In this document: positions 16,245-45,524 of the stretch, in pieces
Layout: each line of letters begins with the position of its first letter
Position numbering within the stretch: the stretch's first letter is position 1
Assembly: GCA_945872825.1 (NCBI GenBank)
Contig: CAMCBD010000009.1
Span: 1 to 49,526, forward strand
Direction of reading: 5' to 3'
Source: Nitrosomonas ureae
GTDB lineage: Bacteria > Pseudomonadota > Gammaproteobacteria > Burkholderiales > Nitrosomonadaceae
Length of the DNA: 49,526 bases
Made by a program: the position numbers and the translations under genes
The notes under the pieces: model-generated
The model's database searches: none
What the model saw: the letters and a program-made list of their open reading frames with translations, nothing else
Told to the model about the DNA's origin: nothing

Positions 16245-16860
16245 TGGCTCTACATCAGATTATTTACGCAGTGGAGAATACCTTATTGTGCTGCAATAAT
16301 CTCATTTACTAAAGGGCACCTCTAAATACCCCAAATAGAAATACGCTCAATCCCTATCGATAGAAGTGATAGCAAAAACATTATCTAGAAAGTCGATGAT
16401 AACTGGGATATCTTGATAAATACAAAAGCTGGATTAACCATACGCCTCAGCAAAGAATTGATTGGTAAATCGATAGTGATTTTAGAAGAGTTGTAGTTAA
16501 CTTTATCCTCTATTTTGCGACTTTTTCGTTTCTATTAGCTTCGACTATGCAATTGTCTGACTACATTTTGTAGGCTGTTTTTAACACCGCAGATCATTAG
16601 TTTCTCAACGAACTATTAATCGTTGTAACAGTAACCAATTGACAGTAAAATATTTTTATCACAAATCTCGGCTGAGGTTCTTAGGATAATGGCTTGGCTA
16701 ATGTGATTGTCGGTGTATCGAGGCTAACAGGCCAATGGAACGGAGGGTTTTGGAATTAATCCGGATTGAATATTTCGTGTCATTGAAAGTAATGATATCG
16801 AAATACCTCGATAGCGTACAAAAGCGCTACGTGTTCATTCTTTTATAAGGAATCTATATC
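16245..16860. other. Gene-free stretch with repeat and gene relics
   Basis: 616 bases between divergent mutS and the first FG-GAP gene. Three relics are visible. At 16314-16327 GGGCACCTCTAAAT resembles one end of the alpha MITE. Around 16565-16620 the sequence resembles the right half of the gamma repeat (CTGTTTTTAACAC, TAGTTT, CAACG). At 16688-16720 a degraded FG-GAP motif can be translated. From 16745 the leader shared with the second FG-GAP gene begins; it contains TAGCG-N8-CGCTA as a possible hairpin. Confidence 0.5.
16688..16720 (+). pseudogene. Relic of an FG-GAP repeat
   Basis: Translating this stretch gives NGLANVIVGVS, which aligns with the DGFDDVIVGAS core of the neighbouring genes; at the DNA level about 25 of 34 bases match the motif at 16962-16996. 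A stop codon lies just before it and one follows. It suggests that a further upstream copy of the propeller gene once existed. Confidence 0.4.
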
Positions 16861-18436: not shown

Positions 18437-18468
18437 TTTGTCATTCCGAGCGCAGTGAGGAATCTTTA
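18437..18468. repeat. Beta MITE, left arm only, cut by an alpha MITE
   Basis: TTTGTCATTCCGAGCGCAGTG and the following GAGGAATCTTTA match the left half of the beta repeat seen at 20579, 21785 and 45243. The right half is absent: the alpha element begins at the next base. Confidence 0.7.
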
Positions 18469-18608
18469 GGGCGCCTCTAAAAATTCAGAGTTCTAAACAA
18501 AACGAGGTGCGAGCAAAAAATGGTTACGCAGCATATGTATGCTATGTAAGGAAACATTTTTTCGAGCAACAAAGTGTTGTAACAAAATTTGGATTTCTAG
18601 AGATACCC
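18469..18608. repeat. MITE family alpha, copy 1
   Basis: A 140-bp non-coding element with terminal inverted repeats of the form GGGCGCCTCTAAAAAT (left) and, read on the other strand, GGGTATCTCTAGAAATCC (right). It is nearly identical (roughly ten differences) to the reverse complement of 41875-42015. No reading frame of note. It is inserted in a beta repeat within the tail of FG-GAP unit 1. An IS5-type transposase acting in trans is a likely mover, by inference only. Confidence 0.85.
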
Positions 18609-18639: not shown

Positions 18640-20610
18640 GGGTTTTGGAATTAATCCGGATTGAATATTTCGTGTCATTGAAAGTAATGATACGAAATAC
18701 CTCGGTAGCGTACAAAAGCGCTACATGTTCATTTTTTGTAAGGAATCGATATCATGACTTTCAGTATTAATTTATTTGATCTTGATGGCAGCAATGGTTT
18801 TCGTTTGGATGGAGAGACGGCGTCTGATTTCTCGGGCCGCTCAGTCAGCAATGCAGGAGATGTGAATGGCGATGGGTTTGATGATGTGATTGTCGGTGCT
18901 TTTGGAGCTGATCCGAACAGCATCTTTTCAGGCTCCAGTTACGTGGTGTTTGGTCAAGCATCCGGTTTCAGTGCGACGATGGATTTATCCAGCCTTAATG
19001 GTAACAATGGTTTTCGTTTGGATGGAGAGGTGTATGATTTTTCGGGCCGATCCGTCAGCACTGCCGGGGATGTCAACGGCGATGGGTTTGATGATGTGAT
19101 TGTCGGCGCATCTTCTGCTGATCAGAACGGCTACGAATCAGGTTCCAGTTATGTGGTGTTTGGTCGAGCATCCGGCTTCAATGCTACGATGGATTTATCC
19201 AGTTTGAATGGCAGCAATGGTTTTAGTTTGGATGGAGAGGCGGCGTCTGATTTCTCGGGCTGCTCAGTCAGCACTGCCGGGGATGTCAACGGCGATGGGT
19301 TTGATGATTTGATTGTCGGTGCTTTTGGAGCTGATCCGAACGGCATCTTTTCAGGCTCCAGTTACGTGGTGTTTGGTCAAGCATCCGGTTTCAGTGCCAC
19401 GATGGATTTATCCAGCCTTAATGGTAACAATGGTTTTCGTTTGGATGGAGAGGCGGCGTCTGATTATTCGGGCCGCTCAGTCAGCACTGCCGGGGATGTG
19501 AATGGCGATGGGTTTGATGATTTGATCATTGGGGCTTACGGAACTGCTTCCAGTTACGTGGTGTTTGGCAAAGCATCCGGTTTCAGTGCTGCGATGGATT
19601 TATCCAGTTTGGATGGTAGCAATGGCTTTCGTTTGGATGGGGCGGCAGGTGATTATTCGGGCGGATCAGTCAGCACTGCCGGGGATGTCAACGGTGATGG
19701 GTTTGATGATTTGATTGTCGGCGCTCCTTTCGTCAGCCTGAACGGCTCTTACTCCGGTTCTAGTTACGTGGTGTTTGGTCAAGCATCTGGTTTCAGTGCT
19801 ACGATGGATTTATCTACTCTCAATGGCAGCAATGGTTTTCGTTTGGATGGAGAGGCGAAGTTTGATTTATCGGGCTGGTCGGTTAGCACTGCCGGGGATG
19901 TCAACGGCGATGGCTTTGATGATTTGATTGTCGGTGCGTGGGGAGCTGACCCGAATGGTGGTGCCTCCGGTTCCAGTTACATCATCTTTGGCCGCAGTAA
20001 TTTTGGTAGTGGGCTGCCTGAAATTCTAGGCACATCCGGGGATGACACGCTCACAGGCACTTCAGCGGCGGAGTATTTTAAGGCCGGTGACGGCAACGAC
20101 AACCTGATCGGTCGGGGCGGCGCGGATATCTTTGACGGCGGGACGGGCAATGACAAGATTCGCGTGGCTGATCTGAGTTTCGCCTCGATTGGTGGCGGCG
20201 CGGGCATTGATGTGCTGCATCTGGCCGGTACCGGCCTGAATCTGAACCTGGCGGATTCCGGCGATCGCATCAGCGGCATCGAAATCATCTCCTTGTACAG
20301 CCAGGGCGACCGCAATACGCTAACGCTCACGGCAGCCGATTTGCTCAATCTGTCGACTACTACCAATACCCTGAAAGTCAATGGCAATGCCGGAGGCCAC
20401 ATTATTGTGGAAGATAGCGGCTGGATCGACGGCGACAACCGTGGCGGGAACGGTTATTATCATGTGTATATGCAGGAAAATGCGGTGTTGCTGGTCGGGC
20501 AGAACTTGACGGTGGATTTTGTGGTGTAAACAATTACACAAGTGGTGCTGGTGATTAGGAAGCGCGGATTAACTCATTTTTGTCATTCCGAGCGTAGAAA
20601 TTAATCTTTA
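18640..20610 (+). repeat. Tandem duplication, unit 2
   Basis: Second copy of the segment described at 16745-18468. The leader (18640-18753) differs from unit 1 at only a few bases, and the 3' part of the gene from about 19980 and the tail through the beta-repeat arm are also near identical. Confidence 0.85.
18754..20529 (+). CDS. FG-GAP beta-propeller protein with RTX-like C-terminus, copy 2
   Basis: 591 residues with six FG-GAP repeats, one more than copy 1. Each holds AGDVNGDGFDDLIVGA or a close variant, a calcium-binding D-x-N-x-D-G-x-x-D loop. Repeats 1 and 3 share a near-identical 129-bp segment (18901-19029 and 19324-19452), which points to internal unequal recombination. The C-terminal segment (ILGTSGDDTLTGTSAAEYF, GGADIFDGGTGNDK and the region ending VDFVV) is almost the same as in copy 1, while the propeller is more variable: a conserved secretion-like tail on a changing surface domain. 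No signal peptide. Seven blades are usual in integrin-type propellers, so six repeats may form a smaller or paired propeller. Confidence 0.85.
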   Translation: MTFSINLFDLDGSNGFRLDGETASDFSGRSVSNAGDVNGDGFDDVIVGAFGADPNSIFSGSSYVVFGQASGFSATMDLSSLNGNNGFRLDGEVYDFSGRSVSTAGDVNGDGFDDVIVGASSADQNGYESGSSYVVFGRASGFNATMDLSSLNGSNGFSLDGEAASDFSGCSVSTAGDVNGDGFDDLIVGAFGADPNGIFSGSSYVVFGQASGFSATMDLSSLNGNNGFRLDGEAASDYSGRSVSTAGDVNGDGFDDLIIGAYGTASSYVVFGKASGFSAAMDLSSLDGSNGFRLDGAAGDYSGGSVSTAGDVNGDGFDDLIVGAPFVSLNGSYSGSSYVVFGQASGFSATMDLSTLNGSNGFRLDGEAKFDLSGWSVSTAGDVNGDGFDDLIVGAWGADPNGGASGSSYIIFGRSNFGSGLPEILGTSGDDTLTGTSAAEYFKAGDGNDNLIGRGGADIFDGGTGNDKIRVADLSFASIGGGAGIDVLHLAGTGLNLNLADSGDRISGIEIISLYSQGDRNTLTLTAADLLNLSTTTNTLKVNGNAGGHIIVEDSGWIDGDNRGGNGYYHVYMQENAVLLVGQNLTVDFVV

Positions 20611-20662
20611 GTAATCAACAGTATATATTTCTCTCTATGCTCGAAATGACAGTTATTCAGAG
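20579..20662. repeat. MITE-like repeat family beta, copy 2
   Basis: Inverted arms GTCATTCCGAGC on the left and GCTCGAAATGAC on the right enclose AATCTTTAGTAATCAACAGT; the right end is AGTTATTCAGAG. The left outer end (CTCTGAATAATT in the full copy at 45243) is missing. Confidence 0.7.
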
Positions 20663-39810: not shown

Positions 39811-40707
39811 ATGCGCTTTAGCAAAAAATATCTTTTCTACCTCATTGCAAGTTGTGTTTTCACGTGCTCCAGTGTACTGGCCGAGACACAGTGCCGGTTG
39901 GATGCCAAGCCAGGAATCGGTGCGCTGGGTCGCATTGAGCCGCGTTCCCGGGTGATCAAAGTGTCGCATAATGCGGGGCCTGAAGGGGCGCGTGTGGCGC
40001 AATTGTTTTTTCAGGAAGCGGATTCTGTCCAATCCGGTGCGAAGCTGGCGGTGCTCTCGGATCATGTCAAAAGAAAAACGGAGGTGCAAGCTGCCGGAAC
40101 GCGTATTAAGGTTCTGGAAGCGCAGCGGGCTGTTGAGCAGATTGCGCTCACTTTTAACCAGAAAGAACATCTGCGCCATCAATCGCTTGAACCCGGCGCG
40201 GTCAGTATTTCACTGATAGATGCGAAACGGCTGGCGTATGAGCAATCCCTAGCCAATCTGAAGCGCTTGTCGGCAGAGATCGCCCGCGCGCAAGCCGAAC
40301 TGAAAATTGCGGAAGCCGAATTGGACAATATGCTGATCACGGCGCCGATCACCGGCACGGTCGTAAAAATCTTCGCCCGCCCGGGAGAACGGATCGGCGA
40401 CAATGGATTGTTGCAAATCGCCGATTTGTCGCAGTTGGATGTCGTGGCGGAAGTCTACGAATCGGAGTTACCTCAAGTCAAAATAGGGCAAACCGGATGT
40501 ATCACGGCGTCCGGTTTCAAACGGAGCTATCGGGCGCAGGTCAGAGAATTGGGATTTCTGGTCCGAAAAAACGATTTGAATGACACCGATCCCTTGGCCG
40601 ACCGGGATAATCGCATCATCGAAGTGCGCCTTACCCTTGAACCGGAAGCCGTTGCGGATTTGCAGCACCAGATTTTCCGGCAGGTTAAGGTACGGATTTC
40701 GCCGTGA
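39811..40707 (+). CDS. devB: HlyD/DevB-type periplasmic adaptor of an ABC exporter
   Basis: 298 residues with a signal peptide ending SSVLAETQ. Membrane-fusion protein: GIGALGRIEPRSRVIKVS and ITAPITGTVVKIFARPGE are the two lipoyl halves, with a coiled-coil hairpin at about 80-180 between them. This family (DevB) works with DevC and DevA to export glycolipids in cyanobacteria; in proteobacteria the cargo is not established. It overlaps devC by four bases. Confidence 0.85.
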   Translation: MRFSKKYLFYLIASCVFTCSSVLAETQCRLDAKPGIGALGRIEPRSRVIKVSHNAGPEGARVAQLFFQEADSVQSGAKLAVLSDHVKRKTEVQAAGTRIKVLEAQRAVEQIALTFNQKEHLRHQSLEPGAVSISLIDAKRLAYEQSLANLKRLSAEIARAQAELKIAEAELDNMLITAPITGTVVKIFARPGERIGDNGLLQIADLSQLDVVAEVYESELPQVKIGQTGCITASGFKRSYRAQVRELGFLVRKNDLNDTDPLADRDNRIIEVRLTLEPEAVADLQHQIFRQVKVRISP

Positions 40708-41873
40708 ATAAGCTGGCCTGGTTTTATTTTCCCGCATGCCTGGCCTGGCGCCAGCTCATCTTTGACCGCAGCAAACTGGTCGCCGCGATTTGTGGGGTTC
40801 TGTTCGCTTGCGTATTGGTATTCATGCAGTTGGGCTTCAAGGATTCCTTGTATGCCAGCGCAGCTTCTGCGCCGGTAAAATTGAATGGCGATTTATTCCT
40901 GATGCACAAGCAAAGTGAAGCCATGTGGCGGCCAATCCAGTTTAAGCGCAGTGAGCTGATGCGTGTTTTGGGAAACCCGGCAGTTGCGGAAGTTTACCCG
41001 CTGTATCTCGGGTTAGCGCCTTTCAAAAATATCCAAACCCAGGTTAAACGAACCTTGATGGTTTACGGTTTTGATCCGGATTCGCTGATCTTCAACATCG
41101 ATGAAATCAAAAGCAAGCAAGTTGAGTTGCGGCTCAAGGATACAGTACTGTTTGACGAATACTCCCGCCCGGAATTCGGCCCCGTTCGCCAACTGCTGGA
41201 AGCAGACCAAAATGTGACTGAAATTAATGATTACAAGGTTAACATCGTCGGATTATTCCGTATGGGGGTTTCATTTGCCGCCGATGGCAATGTCATTACC
41301 AGCGATTTGAATTTCATGCGTATTTTTCCCAGAAGAGATTCCAGCGATATCGATATGGGTGTCATTAAACTCCATCCCGGCGCATCGGCCAAACAGGTCG
41401 AAGCGGAGCTTAAAAGCCAACTGAACGAATTCGTTAACATTTTTACCTATGAAGAGTTGCTGAAATATGAGAAGGATTATTGGGCGAATACGGCGCCGAT
41501 TGGGTTTATTTTTGGATTTGGCACGGTCATGGGATGGGTGGTCGGCTTAGTGATCGTCTATCAGATATTGTTTACCGACATCGCCAATCATCGTAATGAA
41601 TTTGCCACGCTGAAAGCCATGGGCTATGAGCACAGTTACTTTATTCGCCTGGTGTTTGCTTCGGCTTTCTTTTTGGCAGTCCTCGGATTTATTCCTGGTT
41701 ATCTGCTTTCTGTGGGGCTTTACCACCTGGCTGAATCACAAATGTATATGCCGATGCCGATGCTCTTGAGCAAAATCATCACGGTGTTTATGTTTATTCT
41801 TTCGATGTGCGTCATGGCCGGACTACTGGCAATTCGCAAGTTGAAAGATGCTAATCCGGCTGATATGTTCTGA
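40704..41873 (+). CDS. devC: DevC-type ABC exporter permease (FtsX domain)
   Basis: 389 residues: one N-terminal membrane segment (about 20-45), a periplasmic domain of some 210 residues, then three C-terminal membrane segments of the FtsX/MacB type (about 265-380). The segment FATLKAMGYEHSYFIRLV between TM2 and TM3 is the family's ATPase-contact loop. It ends in TGA at 41871-41873, after which a MITE begins two bases later. It pairs with the adaptor upstream and the ATPase downstream. Confidence 0.87.
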   Translation: MNKLAWFYFPACLAWRQLIFDRSKLVAAICGVLFACVLVFMQLGFKDSLYASAASAPVKLNGDLFLMHKQSEAMWRPIQFKRSELMRVLGNPAVAEVYPLYLGLAPFKNIQTQVKRTLMVYGFDPDSLIFNIDEIKSKQVELRLKDTVLFDEYSRPEFGPVRQLLEADQNVTEINDYKVNIVGLFRMGVSFAADGNVITSDLNFMRIFPRRDSSDIDMGVIKLHPGASAKQVEAELKSQLNEFVNIFTYEELLKYEKDYWANTAPIGFIFGFGTVMGWVVGLVIVYQILFTDIANHRNEFATLKAMGYEHSYFIRLVFASAFFLAVLGFIPGYLLSVGLYHLAESQMYMPMPMLLSKIITVFMFILSMCVMAGLLAIRKLKDANPADMF

Positions 41874-41874
41874 T

Positions 41875-42015
41875 GGGCATCTCTAAAAATCCAAATTACG
41901 TCACAACACTTTGTTGCTCGCAAAAAATGTTTCCTTACATATCATACATATGCTGCGTAACCATTTTTTGCTCGTGCCTCGTGTTGTTTAGAACTTTGAA
42001 TTTTTAGAGGCGCCC
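41875..42015. repeat. MITE family alpha, copy 2, inserted between devC and devA
   Basis: 141 bp, terminal inverted repeats GGGCATCTCTAAAAATCC and, on the other strand, GGGCGCCTCTAAAAATTC. It is flanked by the direct repeat TGAT (41871-41874 and 42016-42019), a target-site duplication. It is the reverse complement of the copy at 18469-18608 with about ten differences. No coding frame. The right end carries AGAGG at 42006-42010, seven bases before the devA ATG. Confidence 0.92.
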
Positions 42016-42017
42016 TG

Positions 42018-42695
42018 ATGTCAACGGTCATTGATGTCGAACATCTGGATTTTAGCTTTGGGAGCGGCGCTTTAACGCAACCGGTGCTGAAAGACATCAC
42101 CCTCTCAATCCATAAAGGTGAGATTGTGCTCATCACCGGACCTTCCGGTTCGGGTAAAACCACCTTTCTGACCATTATCGGCGGTCTGCGCCAAGCTTTC
42201 CACGGCAGCGTGAAAGTGCTTGATCAGCAATTTATCAACAGCAGTGAGCCGGTTAAAGTCAAAATACGGCAACAGATCGGCTACATTTTTCAACAACATA
42301 ATTTACTTAAATCACTCACTGCGCTACAAAATGTCAGTATGACGTTAGAAATGGGGAATACGCTGACAGAACAGCAAAGACGCGACCGGTCGGCGGAAAT
42401 GCTGATTGCCGTGGGACTGGGTGATCGGCTTGATTACAAACCCGGGCAACTTTCAGGCGGACAACTGCAACGTGTTTCCATCGCCAGAGCCCTGGTCGGG
42501 CAACCAAAAATCATCCTGGCCGATGAACCGACTGCCTCGCTGGATAAACAAAGTGGCTATGAAGCGGTCAGTCTCCTGAAACAATTAGCCAAAGAATCGC
42601 AAACCACCATTCTTCTGGTCACGCATGACTATCGTATTCTGGATATTGCTGATCGGGTTGTGGAGCTGGAGGATGGTGTGATCAAGAAGGTATGA
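42018..42695 (+). CDS. devA: DevA-type ABC exporter ATPase
   Basis: 225 residues. Walker A GPSGSGKTTFL (about 41-51), Q-loop in GYIFQQHNLL, signature LSGGQLQRVSIARAL, Walker B IILADEPTASLD and the H-loop in TTILLVTHDYR. LolD/MacB/DevA group. It energises the DevBC exporter. Without the MITE its ATG would have overlapped the devC stop as TGATG; now 144 bases intervene and the ribosome-binding site seems to come from the MITE end. Confidence 0.92.
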   Translation: MSTVIDVEHLDFSFGSGALTQPVLKDITLSIHKGEIVLITGPSGSGKTTFLTIIGGLRQAFHGSVKVLDQQFINSSEPVKVKIRQQIGYIFQQHNLLKSLTALQNVSMTLEMGNTLTEQQRRDRSAEMLIAVGLGDRLDYKPGQLSGGQLQRVSIARALVGQPKIILADEPTASLDKQSGYEAVSLLKQLAKESQTTILLVTHDYRILDIADRVVELEDGVIKKV

Positions 42696-45197: not shown

Positions 45198-45242
45198 CGC
45201 CATCATTTGATGAGTACGCAAGATAACATAGCATTCAGGAGT

Positions 45243-45348
45243 CTCTGAATAATTTACCTTTGTCATTCCGAATGGAGTGAGGAATCTTTAGCAATCAAAC
45301 AGAACAGTATAGATTTCTCGCTGTGCTCGAAATGACAATTATTCAGAG
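45243..45348. repeat. MITE-like repeat family beta, most complete copy
   Basis: 106 bp with a perfect 12-bp terminal inverted repeat: CTCTGAATAATT (45243-45254) and AATTATTCAGAG (45337-45348). Inner arms GTCATTCCGA and TCGAAATGAC and then GAGGAATCT and AGATTTCTC extend the palindrome. It sits between the DUF3309 gene and the diiron gene; the rest of the 327-base gap (45349-45524) shows no gene. Confidence 0.85.
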
Positions 45349-45524
45349 GTTTCTTAAAGTATAAGTAGTATCGCACATAGGCGTTCTGTGCTTTAATGTA
45401 CAAAATCAACCCAGTGTTTGCGTATTTCCTCTGCGAACGTGAGTAAATACATAGCAGCAATATGCTGTAGCAACGCACTCAACCTTTTAAATTGGGTAAA
45501 AAAATCAGCCGGGAGATCTCGCCA

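Follow-up and report, generated by a model that had tools for sequence, protein, structure and literature searches.

The junction between devC and devA in a putative exporter operon carries a 141-bp insertion, placed exactly where the devC stop would have overlapped the devA start, that leaves both genes with their own stop and start codons. The preferred reading, which we regard as about evenly balanced between right and wrong, is that a candidate relay cistron running through the inserted element preserves devC-devA coupling; the steps of translation in this reading are ones that we infer. The window analyzed here is the entire 49,526-base contig (C9) of a draft genome in 151 contigs (G000), and the operon and the parts of the insertion described below lie on its + strand.

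On curated profile scores, the operon devB-devC-devA is that of a DevBCA-type ABC exporter. The open reading frames for the membrane-fusion protein devB (39811..40707; TIGR02971, 177 bits, with the cut-off at 129), the permease devC (40704..41873; TIGR01185, 421 bits against 290), and the ATPase subunit devA (42018..42695; TIGR02982, 310 bits against 296) all exceed their NCBIfam cut-offs, which upholds the names devC and devA given to these genes in an earlier sequence-only reading of the same DNA. The devB stop overlaps the GTG start of devC. A search for devC in named genomes gave 26 loci, 25 of them labeled Nitrosomonas and one labeled only Proteobacteria.

That reading had also placed an element between two copies of TGAT and had claimed that devC keeps its stop and devA its ATG, and the insertion is confirmed as it was then observed. 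The element (41875..42015) is bounded by perfect 4-bp repeats at 41871..41874 and 42016..42019; the devC stop TGA (41871-41873) lies within the left copy, and the devA ATG (42018-42020) takes its A and T from the right copy and its G from the next base, with 144 bases between the two genes. The terminal arms of the element (41875-41909 and 41981-42015) are 35 nt each and 77% complementary, and its terminal 16-mer has five matches in the window, two of them its own ends, where 0.55 would be expected. No terminator-like sites were found in 41600-42250, and no promoter-like sites on the + strand within the element. A repeated sequence of about short-read length, in a draft of so many contigs, could have been misplaced here by the assembly, or one of the genes could be unreal. 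We consider this scarcely credible, as the target duplication is perfect, the devB-devC-devA order is conserved, all three genes have curated family matches, and a stub of this end of the element occurs in two relatives at precisely that base.

Shared terminal repeats, the lack of a transposase gene, multiple copies, and a short target duplication together identify the 141-bp element, from sequence, as an IS5-family MITE. It has seven matches in its own genome, including one 54-nt fragment, and at least one match in at least 68 of 125 genomes of the bacterial family (mostly with six candidates scored per genome). The 4-bp target duplication is exact at 24 of the 36 copies read and imperfect, with at least one base differing, at the other 12; to the eye, target sites are AT-rich with no specificity for TGAT. 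The 16-nt ends are also those of a 1343-bp IS5-family element in G025, which has GGGCACCTCTAAAAAT at both ends with TTTA on each side, and whose 299-aa ORF matches the IS5 family transposase profile NF033581 (223 bits, cut-off 140) as well as DDE_Tnp_1. Insertion sites are found both occupied and precisely empty across relatives. Thus far the element resembles other IS5-family MITEs, which are short and non-autonomous, share ends with a longer IS5-family element, and make a short target duplication; it differs in that the site is a stop-start overlap, both genes are intact, and the overlap has been rebuilt at the left edge. A search of the 125 genomes for further insertions at TRATG sites gave 12 pattern matches in 11 genomes; seven of these matches are the element, and only the window copy has long ORFs on both sides. 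A match to TGATGGGCACCTGATG in G009, lying by eye within a short lipoprotein-like ORF, was taken as chance.

Junctions in relatives show what the site looks like when empty. Homologs of devA at E <= 1e-70 were present in 53 of the 125 genomes, a set called same-genus, and all 53 devC-devA junctions were read. Stop and start overlap at 45 of these, as TGATG at 40 and as TAATG at five, so that the empty site TGATG predicted by the sequence-only reading is borne out for most. Five junctions have unrelated spacers of 4, 5, 5, 5, and 15 nt to the next ATG (G073, G009, G019, G020, and G079). Of the remaining three, one is the MITE-bearing junction of the window, and those of two close relatives, G046 and G025, have the sequence TGAT-GGGCACC-TGATG, a state that had gone unnoticed and that is repeated letter for letter in the named record of G046 (NZ_JAIEME010000002.1, L212). 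GGGCACC equals the first seven bases of the MITE consensus and sits between two TGAT copies, and for that reason we take it to be a stub left by this insertion, presumably derived from the full element. In these genomes ATG GGC ACC TGA forms a three-codon frame that is chained from devC to devA by two TGATG overlaps.

The preferred reading starts from the left edge of the insertion. An IS5-family MITE would have inserted into the TGAT of the overlap TGATG, and duplication of TGAT would have left devC its stop and devA its start. As the first base of the MITE is G, the left TGAT and this G re-form TGATG at 41871-41875, behind the sequence that would precede devA if the MITE were absent. The ancestral reinitiation context would now open a 44-codon frame, the candidate relay cistron (41873..42007), whose ATG lies within TGATG at the devC stop and whose TAG (42005-42007), in the right terminal repeat, overlaps a Shine-Dalgarno-like AGAGG (42006..42010) and ends 10 nt 5' of the devA ATG. 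Ribosomes finishing devC would reinitiate on the relay frame, their translation of it would open the MITE hairpin, and after stopping at the relay TAG they would reinitiate on devA; in G046 and G025, the 7-bp stub would leave a relay of three codons with a TGATG overlap on either side. Neither the rebuilt TGATG nor the 44-codon frame had been noted in the sequence-only reading, and the frame would offer a second, perhaps better, way of keeping devA translated. Counting against a relay, one screen showed a negative correlation between coupling and structure immediately following a stop codon (PMC12548453).

The relay frame belongs to the family as well as to this site. Of the 54 copies read at the loci covered, 37 keep it open over 43 codons or more, wherever they lie, and in none is the corresponding frame of the other orientation open that far; when the interior was shuffled with the 16-base ends fixed, the frame stayed open in about 24% of cases. 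Column permutation on 41 copies gave no significant sign of coding selection on the MITE frame: premature stops occur in seven copies, with 14.5 +/- 6.8 expected (18.8% of permutations were as low), and the synonymous fraction is 0.307 against 0.259 +/- 0.060. A frame maintained by selection, which we would have expected of an adapted relay, was thus not seen in these 41 copies. Since the open frame is common to the family and coding constraint on it is undetectable, there is no detectable selection for a peptide, and the frame may be accidental at this site; the family may have this relay by luck and not through adaptation. We also reason that a stub would fall in frame by chance in about 1 of 3 cases.

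A stronger claim would be that the build of this MITE family makes it harmless within operons. Its initial G would recreate ATG after any target ending in AT, its 44-codon frame would be stop-free in one orientation, its end would place a stop, together with a Shine-Dalgarno motif, 10 nt before the gene that follows, in a TGATG overlap it would re-form a coupled three-cistron chain, and decay would be tolerated only to an in-frame stub, as with the 7-bp stub kept as a mini-relay in two lineages. We consider this general design improbable.

The AGAGG at the right end of the MITE was the basis of the original proposal, namely that the element supplies devA with a ribosome-binding site. The motif does lie where it was placed, with seven nucleotides (42011-42017) between it and the devA ATG, and it has the strongest predicted pairing of all the junctions to an assumed anti-Shine-Dalgarno sequence (-5.8 kcal/mol; the 53 junctions average -3.47, sd 1.74), although in the five spacer genomes the stretch scored precedes the aligned first codon and not the real ATG. 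With no relay peptide made, devA might be translated from an independent site, with ribosomes at the devC stop perhaps opening the stem, and RNA unfolding is one of the two models proposed for coupling (PMC12548453). We consider this possible but unlikely. The MITE is predicted to fold on itself into a strong hairpin (-42.5 kcal/mol, z -4.4), and in free RNA with 290 nt of context the predicted probability of being unpaired is 0.00 for AGAGG and 0.01 for the devA ATG. With the motif and the start codon both buried in free RNA, unassisted initiation at devA should be weak. Blocking 41858-41884, as by a ribosome at the devC stop, raises these predicted values only to 0.20 and 0.12. AGAGG also belongs to the terminal repeat, which makes its occurrence uninformative about selection at this site. 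The proposal of a binding site supplied by the MITE therefore stands as to position and pairing strength and is weakened by a motif predicted to be fully paired; as a mechanism, the Shine-Dalgarno site is possible and probably insufficient alone.

Folding does not prove the preferred reading either. When the whole MITE is held open, the predicted probability of being unpaired is 0.42 for AGAGG, and for the devA ATG it is still 0.01, so the start codon can pair elsewhere, and folding is no proof of a relay. Direct reinitiation from the devC stop is a further route to consider. In E. coli, a gap of 38 nt cut reinitiation by 80-90% or abolished it (PMC10666635), and with 144 nt here long-distance reinitiation is not likely.

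The insertion might instead have uncoupled the operon, leaving a low, tolerated level of devA that arises by leaky initiation, or from a transcript cut in the MITE hairpin with the devA part translated alone. The hairpin is strong, RNase cleavage of MITE-containing transcripts is described (PMC10969869), and the relay frame is a trait of the family, not of this site. Codon changes were polarized with the outgroups G051, G023, G024, and G076. For devA, the G000 branch has 16 synonymous and two non-synonymous changes and the G046 branch 10 and two, with 12 of the 42 codons that differ left unassigned; the corresponding counts for devC are 22 and four, and 17 and five, with 31 of 79 unassigned. 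The two genes thus look similarly constrained, and constraint on devA in the lineage of the window argues that it is still made, but a low level could suffice. Both stub relatives also have the stub in frame, although a single shared stub would make this a weak argument. On balance, we find an uncoupled operon rather unlikely.

How the full element and the stub came to be distributed as they are depends on relationships that differ among genes. The dev operon occupies the same position in G000, G046, and G025, with flanks that align on both sides; for G051, G023, G024, G076, and G084, alignment is limited to the operon in the stretches fetched. A search for rpoB in G046 found none, and in the other genomes rpoB groups G025 with G000 and G054. 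A tree of gyrB and secA gives (G025,(G046,(G000,G054))); with gyrB alone, G054 falls beside G025 (support 0.71), and the genes may therefore have conflicting histories. Compared with window 40468-42468, the dev locus of G025 (L146) shows a devC-devA core that differs from G000 and G046 by about 20%, within flanks that differ by only about 10%. The devA and devC trees also place G025 with low support. From these two features we conclude that the core has, by its sequence, a mixed history, with allele replacement of part of the operon probable in G025. A single shared loss behind both stubs would be a poor simple fit with the gyrB and secA order and with the divergence of the G025 core. The stub in G025 and G046 beside the full element in G000 would reflect either two identical losses or exchange or recombination between lineages; for the deletion itself, a 3-bp CCT microhomology is visible by eye. 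In G054, with 40 of 85 candidates scored, the dev genes had no match apart from MITE copies; the other matches there were two short stretches immediately 5' of devB, a dispersed repeat, a 70% stretch of a regulator gene, and a 66% stretch of the following gene. The window repeat at 45234-45357 is a dispersed one, with more than 20 matching places in G054.

Joined flanks of 27 insertion sites were also searched against four genomes for footprints. The 50 loci examined gave 42 rows for 20 of the 27 sites: 23 precisely empty, six with the full element, three whose inserts are longer (48, 71, and 93 nt), and 10 in which the gap is of another size or the flanks overlap (-11). Precisely empty sites may represent the pre-insertion state or precise loss. 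A general 7-nt excision footprint was rejected, as none of the 36 rows without the full element shows a 7-nt stub; 11-nt gaps at site L181 were suggestive in length and unrelated in their letters. At site L176, the element is present in G000 and G054, G025 holds an insert with a similar left end, and G046 is empty, a pattern that favors loss or recombination in G046.

In sequence layout, the window element resembles the mycobacterial interspersed repetitive units (MIRUs), the nearest known case, and would work like them; we liken it to MIRUs without classing it as one; the original paper on these is said to be that of Supply et al. Joined to the upstream stop and adjoining the downstream start, the ORF of the repeat has the arrangement of a MIRU-like element at the level of sequence. 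According to a 2025 review (PMC12548453), start codons appear to be where MIRUs insert, so that an ORF of their own becomes coupled to the gene, which likely lessens the impact of insertion. The two are alike in being small, mobile-looking repeats at a start codon with an internal ORF adjoining the host gene. They differ in that MIRU ORFs couple at -4 nt in mycobacteria, whereas entry here would be through TGATG (-1) and exit at +10 nt, and in that the window holds an IS5-type MITE with terminal repeats, a 4-bp target duplication, and a frame without detectable coding constraint. Chunjie-1, a 235-bp MITE of Geobacter uraniireducens (Chen et al.), is similar in lying within an operon; according to a review, it disrupts one copy of a phosphate uptake operon (PMC10969869). 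The enterobacterial repeats RU-1/2/3 are MITE-like, 103-168 bp long, and contain an open frame (PMC2759123); that frame is discussed as fused to other ORFs, whereas in the window it would form a cistron of its own between devC and devA. Our literature search, with most subscription journals outside its coverage, turned up no paper that treats this element or links MITEs with translational coupling.

Should the relay prove real, a site that is among the most sensitive to insertion in a bacterial operon can be crossed by a transposon with the genes still coupled, by a route that calls for no later adaptation. Related species provide a natural series of three states at one site, namely the overlap, a 144-nt insertion, and a 10-nt stub, and this series makes the roles of ribosome hand-on and RNA unfolding in coupling directly testable.

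Other copies of the MITE were seen in the window and in relatives. A second copy at 18469-18608 in the window is 92% identical to the first and lies, by eye, 3' of a repeat-rich coding stretch; its flanks recur in part on the same contig, at 20521-20611 and 16745-16808. Next to it, at about 18440-18470, is a repeat that by eye is of the GTCATTCCGA...GAGGAATC type and has many matches in four genomes. A lone terminal-repeat-like end, GGGCACCTCTAAATAC, occurs at 16314-16329 with three mismatches and is possibly a decayed element or a chance match. One insertion site holds two lengths, 88 bp in G046 (L154, G046:C10:21029-21116) and 142 bp in G025 (L169, G025:C1:3591483-3591624), and forms of 87 and 56 bp with 4-bp target duplications are also present (L172 and L158). 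With these 88-, 87-, and 56-bp forms beside the 142-bp form, the family seems to decay by internal deletion. Allowing up to two mismatches, the terminal 16-mer has 34-53 matches in four other genomes, against 20-31 for reversed controls; in G074 it has 622 matches against 16 for the reversed control, which suggests a large expansion of the MITE family.
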